Positions 835-3,599 of a DNA stretch of 5,123 bases are shown in pieces. The position numbers and the translations under genes are program-made. The notes below the pieces were generated by a model. The model was given only the letters and a program-made list of their open reading frames with translations, was not told the DNA's origin and did not search any database. The stretch lies in contig JAPYWL010000074.1 in NCBI GenBank assembly GCA_028276365.1, forward strand, positions 1-5,123, given 5' to 3'. The stretch's first letter is position 1, and every line of letters starts with the position of its first letter. The DNA is from Deltaproteobacteria bacterium. Lineage in GTDB: Bacteria; DRYD01.

Positions 835-858
835 TTTTATTGACTTTTATCAATAAAA
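835..858. promoter_or_regulatory. FNR/CRP-like palindromic operator candidate overlapping the -35 box
   Basis: TTTTATTGA (835-843) and TCAATAAAA (850-858) form a perfect 9-bp inverted repeat with a 6-nt centre. The core TTGAC-TTTT-ATCAA (840-853) matches the FNR consensus TTGAT-N4-ATCAA at 9 of 10 defined positions. It sits on the -35 element of the porin promoter, where a bound protein would be expected to repress. It could instead be a weak terminator for the upstream methyltransferase gene, although the T-run (866-872) begins 8 nt after the stem, which is far for an intrinsic terminator. The symmetry is seen; the regulator is inferred. Confidence 0.4.
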
Positions 859-867
859 AAGTATATT
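840..867 (+). promoter_or_regulatory. Sigma-70-type promoter of the porin gene
   Basis: TTGACT (840-845) is followed after 16 nt by TATATT (862-867). These match the consensus boxes TTGACA and TATAAT at 5 of 6 bases each. The start of transcription would fall near 873-875. The transcript would therefore carry a leader of about 165 nt and begin about 10 nt before the first strand of the leader helix. In AT-rich DNA chance matches are common, but both boxes, the spacing and the position upstream of a structured leader agree. Confidence 0.6.
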
Positions 868-987
868 TTTTTAATTGATTTAGTTTAAGGAGGATAAATA
901 GGAGGTATGTAAAATAAGATTAGTAAGGGGGTAAAAAGGGAGAAAGCGGTAAGGGAAACGAAGGAAAAACTTATTGCTAACCCCTTA

Positions 988-1033
988 TTTACCTCCTTAA
1001 AAAAAAACAAAAAAAAAACAAAAAGGAGGTAAA
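988..1033 (+). promoter_or_regulatory. RBS-sequestering hairpin
   Basis: TTTACCTCCTT (988-998) and AAGGAGGTAAA (1023-1033) are perfect reverse complements. They enclose a 24-nt loop (999-1022) made of adenines apart from C1008 and C1019. The right arm contains the whole Shine-Dalgarno sequence of the porin gene, so this fold would block ribosome entry. The left arm copies the 16S rRNA tail, ACCTCCTT. Confidence 0.6.
1023..1030 (+). promoter_or_regulatory. Strong ribosome binding site of the porin gene
   Basis: AAGGAGGT is a full-length match to the Shine-Dalgarno consensus. GGAGG (1025-1029) lies 9 nt before the ATG at 1039. This fixes the start of the porin gene and fits a highly expressed surface protein. 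Confidence 0.9.
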
Positions 1034-1038
1034 AGGTT

Positions 1039-3540
1039 ATGTGGCGGTTGCTATTATTGGCAGCGCTACTATCAATGGTAGCGTTAACGACCACATTTGC
1101 TGCACCATTTCCTGATGTCCCAGAAAGCCACTGGGCATCGAGTGCAGTACAAACACTAAAAGCTAAAGGGGTATTAGAAGGGTACCCTGATGGATTATAC
1201 AGAGGAAAAAGAGCTGCATCAAGATATGAAATGGCAATGGCTTTATCAAGAGTCGTAGCTAAATTAGAGCAATTAGAATCTTCATTACCAGATTTTAATC
1301 AATTTGTTACCAAAGATGATTTAGCAGCAGTTAAAAGAATGGTAGATGAAAACAGACAATACATAGAAGAATTAAATGTAAGAGTAGATGCATTAGAAAA
1401 GAAAGTAGGAGAGCTCGATAAAAGATTATCTAAATTAGAGAGATTAACAGTTCATGGTTGGTATGAAATGGCTTATGTTAATCAAAATGTAAAAGCAGAT
1501 CAAATAAATAATATAGTTGTAGGTAACACAACTACAGTTGGATGGCCAGCAAGTACAAGGATATTTACATTTGAATCAACTCTACCATATTCTACAGCAT
1601 TAGTGGGATGGAATAATGGAGATATAAAGCCATGGAATAATTATTTATTTACAAGATCATGGAATAATTTACCAATATCAACTGCAGAAGGTAGCTTGGA
1701 TGTAGGATATTTAAAGCTAAAAGGGAAATTAAGTGAAGATTGGATGATAGATGCCTTATTAAGTGGGAATAATTTATTATTTATGGGCTTAGGTGCTCAA
1801 AATTATATAGTTAATGCTGTAAATGGATTACAAATGCTTACAGGTGAGGGAAGTTGGATTGGGCCTACAACAGCAACTCAACAATTATTAGCTGATAATA
1901 ATTTAATAAGATTTGAAACAGTGAAATTATGGAATAAAGAAAAGAGTTTAATGGTAACTTTAGGAGGATTTAATCCAAATTTAACAGAAGGATTTGTATT
2001 TGCAGGAGGACCTAATCCATATCTATGGGATTCTAAACCATATTTTGCTGCATATGGGTTTAATATATATCATAAACCAAATAAATCATTATTTGGAGCA
2101 GAATTAGAACATGAATTATATACAGGAAAGGTTTCTCAGTTTGATGGACAAGATCAAACAGCTCCAACTCCAAATACTTATAATCTAACACAAAGAGTAT
2201 TTGGTTATGCTATAAACTTCAAATTCCAAAAGGGATATTTTAAATTAATGTATAATGTTATAGAGGATTCTCAAGAAGAATTCAATCCAGGATTTGCTTT
2301 TAGTATAAATACTGGAGCGTTTTTCGGAGGAGCTTGGTCTTGGTTAACTCCTGATAACCCTACATTAAATGATCCAATGTTTGGTGGTAAATATGGGTTA
2401 GCTGGTGGTATTACACCAGTAGGTCCTCAATATCAATCTACTATAGGAGCATCATTTAGATATAATATAAATGATAGATTTGCATTTAGTGGTAAGTTTG
2501 CATCTTCAAGATATTTACCAGTAAAAGAATTAGGATTATCAACAAGTGGCTCAATGTTTGCAGCAAGAATTTGTGGTTCTTGGGGTAATACTACATTAAA
2601 AGAATATCAAGAAAATTGGAAACTAAATGCTAAAAGCGGATTATTTAATATAGAATACTTATCAGTAGATCCAGATTATAGTCCATTTATAGGAATAACT
2701 AATTTCTTTGCAGTTGCTAATCCATTTCCAGTTGTAGGAGTAGGATATTATGATAATTTATATTGGGGACAATTACCATATCCCGTTTATCAACCAGTTT
2801 TAAATAGTGATCAATTAACATATACAGCACATGATGCAAAATCTTATCCAAATAATAGACAAGGTGTAAGAGTAAATGTACAATATAAATTTAGTGATGC
2901 ATTCTTAGGATGGGCTATGTATGAAGGATTAACTCAAAAAGATGCTACAATGGATAATGATCCTCTTATTGGTGGTACTCAAGTTAAGTGGGGATTCTAT
3001 GAACCTATATTCGGAACTACTGGTGATGTAACTGTTGCTACTGATGTATTCAAAAAAGGAACTATAAACACATTTAATGTAGGATTTAATTATAAGTTCC
3101 AAAGTGGGAAATATGATTTCACTGCACAATACTATAATACTGATGTACAAAGGAAAATCCCCAATGATGGTGTAGTTACAAATCCTTGGGATAATATAGA
3201 TTACAATATAAGAGCATATGATGTATTATTTAGGTTCTTTGCAAATGAAAAATGGACATGGCACATAGCTTATACCGCTGTAACAAGTGATGGAAAATAT
3301 TTCCTAGAACAGGATGATCCTAATTTCCAAGGAAAAAATATGTCATATGATAGTAATGCATTAAGAGTAGGATTTGACTGGAAAGTATCAGAAGATGTTA
3401 ATTTCTTTGCAAATTATAGATTCTTGAATTTTGATGGTAAGAACTTCCTAAATAATAGAGGGGTACTTACTATAGATAATCCAGATTGGAAAGGTAATCA
3501 ATTATGGGTAGGAGCAAGAGTTAAATTTGGACAAAAGTAG
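1039..3540 (+). CDS. SLH-domain outer-membrane porin (signal peptide, SLH, coiled coil, beta-barrel)
   Basis: This 833-residue protein is predicted to form an outer-membrane channel while its N-terminal domain grips the cell wall in the periplasm. Residues 1-21 form a signal peptide with a very short n-region (only R3) and a hydrophobic stretch, with probable cleavage at TFA/AP. Residues 24-78 are a single SLH domain with FPDVPESHWA, GYPDG (48-52) and RYEMAMAL (62-69). Residues about 88-135 show heptad-like Leu/Val spacing with charged residues, a likely coiled-coil stalk. The remaining roughly 700 residues are rich in aromatic, Gly and Asn residues with alternating beta-strand patterns (for example FNVGFNYKFQ, LRVGFDWKV) and end in LWVGARVKFGQK, a typical last barrel strand with a short tail. 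There is one Cys (512). ATG with a perfect Shine-Dalgarno fixes the start; TAG is followed at once by a second TAG. Family known from SomA-like and Slp/Omp-alpha-type proteins; substrate specificity is unknown. The first 102 bases are about 50% GC, unlike the rest. Confidence 0.88.
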   Translation: MWRLLLLAALLSMVALTTTFAAPFPDVPESHWASSAVQTLKAKGVLEGYPDGLYRGKRAASRYEMAMALSRVVAKLEQLESSLPDFNQFVTKDDLAAVKRMVDENRQYIEELNVRVDALEKKVGELDKRLSKLERLTVHGWYEMAYVNQNVKADQINNIVVGNTTTVGWPASTRIFTFESTLPYSTALVGWNNGDIKPWNNYLFTRSWNNLPISTAEGSLDVGYLKLKGKLSEDWMIDALLSGNNLLFMGLGAQNYIVNAVNGLQMLTGEGSWIGPTTATQQLLADNNLIRFETVKLWNKEKSLMVTLGGFNPNLTEGFVFAGGPNPYLWDSKPYFAAYGFNIYHKPNKSLFGAELEHELYTGKVSQFDGQDQTAPTPNTYNLTQRVFGYAINFKFQKGYFKLMYNVIEDSQEEFNPGFAFSINTGAFFGGAWSWLTPDNPTLNDPMFGGKYGLAGGITPVGPQYQSTIGASFRYNINDRFAFSGKFASSRYLPVKELGLSTSGSMFAARICGSWGNTTLKEYQENWKLNAKSGLFNIEYLSVDPDYSPFIGITNFFAVANPFPVVGVGYYDNLYWGQLPYPVYQPVLNSDQLTYTAHDAKSYPNNRQGVRVNVQYKFSDAFLGWAMYEGLTQKDATMDNDPLIGGTQVKWGFYEPIFGTTGDVTVATDVFKKGTINTFNVGFNYKFQSGKYDFTAQYYNTDVQRKIPNDGVVTNPWDNIDYNIRAYDVLFRFFANEKWTWHIAYTAVTSDGKYFLEQDDPNFQGKNMSYDSNALRVGFDWKVSEDVNFFANYRFLNFDGKNFLNNRGVLTIDNPDWKGNQLWVGARVKFGQK

Positions 3541-3570: not shown

Positions 3571-3599
3571 AAAGGGGGCACTAGTTTGCCCCCTTTTTT
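3571..3599 (+). terminator. Rho-independent terminator after the porin gene
   Basis: AAAGGGGGCA (3571-3580) pairs perfectly with TGCCCCCTTT (3587-3596) around a 6-nt loop, and T-runs follow at 3594-3599 and 3601-3604. It lies 31 nt after the porin stop codon and should separate porin transcription from the binding-protein gene. It is the most GC-rich stem in the window. Confidence 0.93.

Follow-up and report, generated by a model that had tools for sequence, protein, structure and literature searches.

A conserved stem-loop in the leader of an SLH porin gene and its probable role in translational control

It has been proposed that deep-branching diderm bacteria tether their outer membrane mainly through SlpA/OmpM porins (PMC9388160), and the tuning of the high synthesis of these porins is largely unexplained. 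The stretch of 5,123 nucleotides analysed here as a whole (the window; contig JAPYWL010000074.1 of a Deltaproteobacteria bacterium) raises the question of how far such tuning may be encoded in the mRNA itself: it contains an SLH porin gene of the SlpA/OmpM type, in whose leader several segments compete for one partner of the ribosome binding site. Our answer, drawn from comparisons of sequences, is that the leader represents an RNA element that has apparently not been described before, is located before outer-membrane protein genes in many distant bacterial groups and probably sets the level of porin translation. If many phyla share such a porin-leader element, it would amount to a major family of cis-regulatory RNAs that Rfam apparently lacks.

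Competing pairings in the porin leader

The porin gene (1039..3540; forward strand, as are its promoter and the parts of its leader named below) encodes 833 amino acids and was assigned by Pfam SLH and by PDB matches (SlpA, 7zgx; the SLH proteins 8bys and 8bym); its match to the NCBIfam model por_somb is below the cut-off. A good intrinsic-terminator-like hairpin with 10 pairs and a T run follows the gene at 3571-3596. In four of the five other family genomes, contigs end inside the porin gene (G001, C8/C6; G003, C33; G004, C106; G005, C125/C112), which suggests that the barrel region is hypervariable or repeated and breaks assemblies. Upstream of the leader, a sigma-70-like promoter is predicted at 840..867 (-35 TTGACT at 840-845, -10 TATATT at 862-867; 10/12 matches), and similar promoters exist in G001 and G002. 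The RNA is consequently expected to start at about 874-876, i.e. 5' of position 884. A palindrome, TTGAY-N4-RTCAA, occupies 840-853 of the window and the same place in the loci L032 and L033; its version in G002 is the perfect FNR-box-like sequence TTGATAAATATCAA. In three relatives the palindrome overlaps with the -35 box of the promoter; it may serve as an operator of the FNR/CRP type, placed so as to repress.

The porin Shine-Dalgarno (SD) region AAGGAGGTAAA (1023..1033) is spaced by 5 nt from the ATG at 1039. An initial annotation had assigned it a perfect 11-bp upstream partner, and the anti-SD segment TTTACCTCCTT (988..998) is indeed its exact reverse complement over 11 nt; in none of 400 dinucleotide shuffles did a perfect match to the SD region extend to 11 nt (shuffle mean 5.7), and a duplex energy as good as the observed -18.4 was obtained in 1 of 1000 shuffles. 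The same annotation had proposed that 884-902 pairs with the anti-SD through about 18 pairs with one or two bulges. We computed 18 pairs and one bulge for 884-902 with 981-999 (-20.3 kcal/mol); pairing of a wider 5' region with the anti-SD arm gave -25.4 kcal/mol, a value as good in only 1 of 1000 shuffles.

The resulting picture of a three-way competition holds insofar as several segments rival for one anti-SD at near-equal energy, but it overlooked a stronger structure. Folding of the leader, which had been suggested as a check, gave as minimum-energy fold a hairpin at 924..999, whose 5' arm (924-940, GTAAGGGGGTAAAAAGGG) pairs with a 3' arm (982-999) that holds the anti-SD. This hairpin was the minimum-energy structure for every 5' end tried and is predicted to be able to form once position 999 has been transcribed. 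Its upper part (945..978) consists of an inner stem, 945-953/970-978, and the loop 954-969 (GGAAACGAAGGAAAAA), which contains the conserved core GAAAC-GAA-GG-AAA at 955-967; it was delineated by the fold, by the descriptor and the best site of model R3 (see below), and by covariation of the stem across the element as a whole (see below). The alternatives cost little: the predicted energies are -36.6 kcal/mol for the local hairpin, -34.8 kcal/mol for the SD-sequestered fold and -34.4 kcal/mol for the fold with the paired 5' arm. Thus, 1.8 kcal/mol separate the ON fold from the OFF fold, and all three states are within about 2 kcal/mol. Because the hairpin is the minimum-energy fold and holds the anti-SD arm, the SD is mostly free in the predicted folds, and the predicted default is ON. 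The annotation had arrived at the same default from the 5' helix, which is transcribed first and looked stronger; this reason is not supported, as that helix competes with hairpin 924-999, by which the default would be set.

Among six other genomes of the genus, family and order of the window organism (window genome: 1.59 Mb, 124 contigs, 87% complete), three had a readable porin leader (G001, G002, G005). All four family leaders, including that of the window, share the hairpin and its loop: it is found at the matching place with the loop GAAAC-GAA-GG-AAA or a near variant, while the stems differ in G002 and G005. The pairing of each hairpin with its own arm was best or nearly best; for G002, the value was -29.6 with its own arm versus -13 to -18 with arms of the other genus. 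The SD:anti-SD pairing is retained in G000, G001 and G002 and gone in G005 (-6.8). Pairing of the 5' arm is strong in G000 and G001 only, with values of -12.9 in G002 and -2.7 in G005. The homologous leaders, a comparison for which the annotation had asked, do show covariation, but one of them lacks the SD pairing and the 5' helix is limited to the genus.

The stem-loop is conserved and tied to porin genes

In order to follow the stem-loop beyond these relatives, we used a descriptor consisting of an apical loop G-N-AAC-N2-3-GG, a closing stem of at least 4 pairs and a distance of at most 250 nt from the start codon. Outside Deinococcota, 23 of 88 SLH-porin leaders matched, where 1.04 were expected, and the descriptor was absent from the other 65; within Deinococcota, it matched 63 of 66 leaders (3.2 expected). 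These counts are partly circular, since the descriptor was loosened after leaders had been seen; the concern is smaller for the scan of whole genomes and for the phylum that was held out, both described below. The leaders of the window, G001, G002 and G005 also fit the descriptor, which was chosen after seeing them; 0 to 0.7% of their shuffles do so. The consensus of the loop is G-N-AAC-N2-3-GG-NNA, and the element precedes SLH porins as well as some non-SLH porins. In Deinococcota, a phylum name that was assigned because SlpA matches 7zgx of D. radiodurans (E 6.4e-51), GAGG-AAAC-NN-GG-NNA-CTC is present in each of the 63 main slpA-type leaders read and missing from three paralogue leaders; many other families present GNAAC-N2-3-GG variants on different stems.

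The stems covary. In alignment A8, 80.8% of cells are paired, and 38 double-change cells compare with 15.3 after shuffling (0/500 shuffles) and with 10-20 in slid controls. In alignment A9, 84.8% of cells are paired, with 15 double-change cells versus 5.3 (0/500).

A scan of 386 whole genomes with model R2 gave 23 matches at E <= 6.5e-4, against a chance expectation of about 0.25. All but one of these best matches immediately precede a gene for an SLH porin or for another predicted outer-membrane protein, the latter having been outside the building set of R2; the sole exception is inside a hemC-like coding sequence. The protein of locus L219 matches Campylo_MOMP and Porin_O_P, whereas those of L217, L218 and L220 have only a weak hint of an outer-membrane family and no Pfam match. 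The latter three are predicted to be small outer-membrane proteins; no SLH domain was detected in them, and their genes, partly arranged in tandem, have near-identical copies of the element. In the held-out phylum (that of G229), new matches were found in 15 further genomes, and all 15 precede an SLH porin; 13 of them have a 5' GAAAGGAGGTG or AAAAGGAGGTG. R2 and R3 matches weaker than E 6e-4 are a different matter, as most of those inspected fall by chance in coding genes, e.g. for HemC or thioredoxin. Covariation and gene context together establish the leader stem-loop as a conserved structured element with a strongly covarying stem that is tied to porin genes.

The window hairpin itself scores low with models built without the window: R2 gave 6.4 bits and R3 12.8 bits, the latter with a weak E of 0.15 in 10 kb. 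The hairpin has extra loop bases; R3 nevertheless ranks the region 945-978 first in the window. The hairpins of the window family were not found by the Deinococcota-only model R1, which was too narrow, and were likewise missed by R2 with default filters. Of other copies in this family, none besides the porin element was credible. Membership of the window leader is thus a likely assignment, for which its loop, its position, the hairpin of the relatives and the weak-E rank with R3 speak together. No known class had been recognized in the initial annotation; in accordance with this, the leader hairpins of the window and of 37 related loci had no match to any Rfam 15 model, be it of a leader or a riboswitch, even when E values up to 1 were allowed, and the few matches elsewhere in the loci were unrelated to the leader.

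SD sequestration and the 5' segment

In leaders of many phyla, the elements follow one another in the same order: a near-invariant GAAAGGAGGUG comes first and an anti-SD next, within 24 nt, after which other stems precede the GNAAC hairpin and, finally, the SD and the start codon. The position of the anti-SD differs between lineages; in the window it is 3' of the loop. The anti-SD changes with the true SD, as in CCUUGG/CCAAGG and CUUGAAC/GUUCAAG, and in the covarying pairs AUUAUCCC/GGGAUAAU, CUCUGGAA/UUCCAGGGAG and CUCUCGAC/GUUGAGAG. Matched leaders surpassed swapped ones in SD:anti-SD pairing: the full set of 28 leaders gave p = 5e-5, the 13 leaders from outside Deinococcota 1.5e-4 and those from within it 0.025; inside the held-out phylum, p was only 0.057. 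Due to this covariation, SD sequestration appears to be under selection. In the predicted ensembles, SD:anti-SD pairing is favoured in some leaders and mimic:anti-SD pairing in others, which is what a switch predicts, yet no proof of one.

The 5' segment seems to have a different role. GAAAGGAGGUG is a near-complete complement of the 16S 3' end (pairing of -15.6 to -22.2, computed for other phyla only), and in these phyla it shows no covariation with the anti-SD (p = 0.69); it therefore looks more like a 16S-rRNA-binding, SD-like segment. Judged by position and sequence, its counterpart in the window would be AAGGAGGA (888..895) within the 5' arm 884-902; G001 has AGGGAGGA, and the segment is weaker in G002 and G005. 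Most likely, the 5' segment contacts the ribosome or protects the end. An upstream ORF as explanation of this element was rejected: the TTG that follows GGAGGTG in many leaders is missing where the anti-SD differs (L089, L096, L109, L129, L162), and thus follows from SD complementarity. A minimal start-stop ORF, ATG-TAA after GGAGGT, is present at 906-911 of the window and in G001 (GGATGTAA), but not in G002 and G005.

These properties of the 5' segment are also those of a leader that merely stabilizes the mRNA. In such a leader, a 5' hairpin and an SD-like segment near the 5' end would shield the very abundant porin mRNA from nucleases, and the SD complementarity of the window would be a by-product of the SD-like 5' arm. 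Near-invariance of GAAAGGAGGUG, its strong pairing with the 16S 3' end and its independence of the anti-SD are compatible with this idea, as is the mostly free SD of the window. A precedent is STAB-SD, in which SD-like 5' elements stabilize mRNAs (cited in PMC7509114). STAB-SD/ompA-type stabilizers resemble the porin leader in that an SD-like segment and a stem-loop are located close to the 5' end of an abundant mRNA for an envelope protein; however, they need neither a conserved loop nor a covarying anti-SD. Pure stabilization leaves unexplained both the conserved apical loop and the anti-SD that covaries with the SD across phyla, and we regard it as unlikely, albeit the most serious alternative.

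Proposed mode of control

We consider it rather probable, on comparative grounds, that the leader is an RNA that controls the translation of an outer-membrane porin in cis and that it is a member of a trans-phylum family. The GNAAC loop would be recognized by a shared factor acting in trans, for which a protein is a better candidate than a small ligand; its binding would shift the balance between an anti-SD kept off the SD and SD:anti-SD pairing. In the window, the ON state would have the anti-SD locked inside hairpin 924-999 and the SD free; in the OFF state, 988-998 would pair with 1023-1033. The 5' SD-like segment would probably recruit or park 30S subunits or protect the 5' end rather than act as the main switch arm. 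As an outcome, porin synthesis would be matched to the state of the envelope. Switching by the window leader, a factor at the loop and the direction of control are thus parts of a model that we infer, and autogenous control by the porin itself is possible.

A similar mode of operation is known from the autogenous leaders of ribosomal-protein operons, where a protein-sized binding hairpin is combined with SD occlusion before an abundant product. The genes, however, are others, and no Rfam leader family matches the porin leaders. More tentatively, and with somewhat less than even confidence, the element may constitute an ancient trans-phylum RNA regulon, in which one RNA-binding factor, kept across many diderm phyla with SlpA/OmpM tethers, reads the GNAAC loop and sets porin translation via the SD/anti-SD switch.

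Leader location, SD sequestration and a conserved loop would equally suit a small-molecule translational riboswitch, with the GNAAC hairpin as part of an aptamer for an envelope-related metabolite or ion. Yet conservation is confined to a single hairpin with a 12-16-nt loop, a conserved junction core was not detected, the stems around the hairpin vary between phyla and no Rfam riboswitch matches, which makes this reading quite improbable. It is more improbable still that purine-rich, SD-like repeats in an AT-rich leader are complementary by accident: several GGAGG-like stretches do occur in the leader and the 5' arm pairing is unconserved in G002 and G005, but the shuffle tests, the stem covariation and the genome-wide association with porins contradict chance for the hairpin; for the 5' arm 884-902, chance may still apply. 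Least probable is a CsrA/RsmA site, i.e. a CsrA-binding hairpin with a GGA (ANGGA-like) loop, since, despite the resemblance of loops such as AACAAGGAUAC to the CsrA consensus and a CsrA gene in 15 of 28 element-bearing genomes tested, Deinococcota loops often read GGC, and CsrA (PF02599) was not found in the window genome (87% complete), three relatives, five Deinococcota genomes, G021, G164, G209 and G343; its absence from the tested genomes of the window family and Deinococcota excludes CsrA as the common factor, but it may act in single lineages.

Among the closest known systems is also the slpA 5'UTR of Thermus thermophilus, which shares the gene family; Thermus-type slpA leaders have the loop GAAACRCGG. 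Post-transcriptional control through this 5'UTR was reportedly described by the Berenguer group in about 1997-2001, and autogenous control by the porin is said to have been proposed. To our knowledge, the GNAAC motif and its spread were not described in that work. The element offers a handle for finding the factor that would couple porin translation to the state of the envelope, and Thermus and Deinococcus are suitable for this purpose. The window leader differs from those of Thermus by its 3-nt spacer, its larger loop and the location of its anti-SD inside the hairpin; the Thermus leaders, unlike that of the window, have a separate SD-proximal hairpin (ACCCT..AGGGGGT, ACCTCC..GGAGGT). This hairpin is located in the last 30 nt before the start codon (L045, L058, L060 and others) and has undergone apparent compensatory changes, as is seen from ACCTCC-AAA-GGAGGT versus ACCCT-GA-AGGGGGT.
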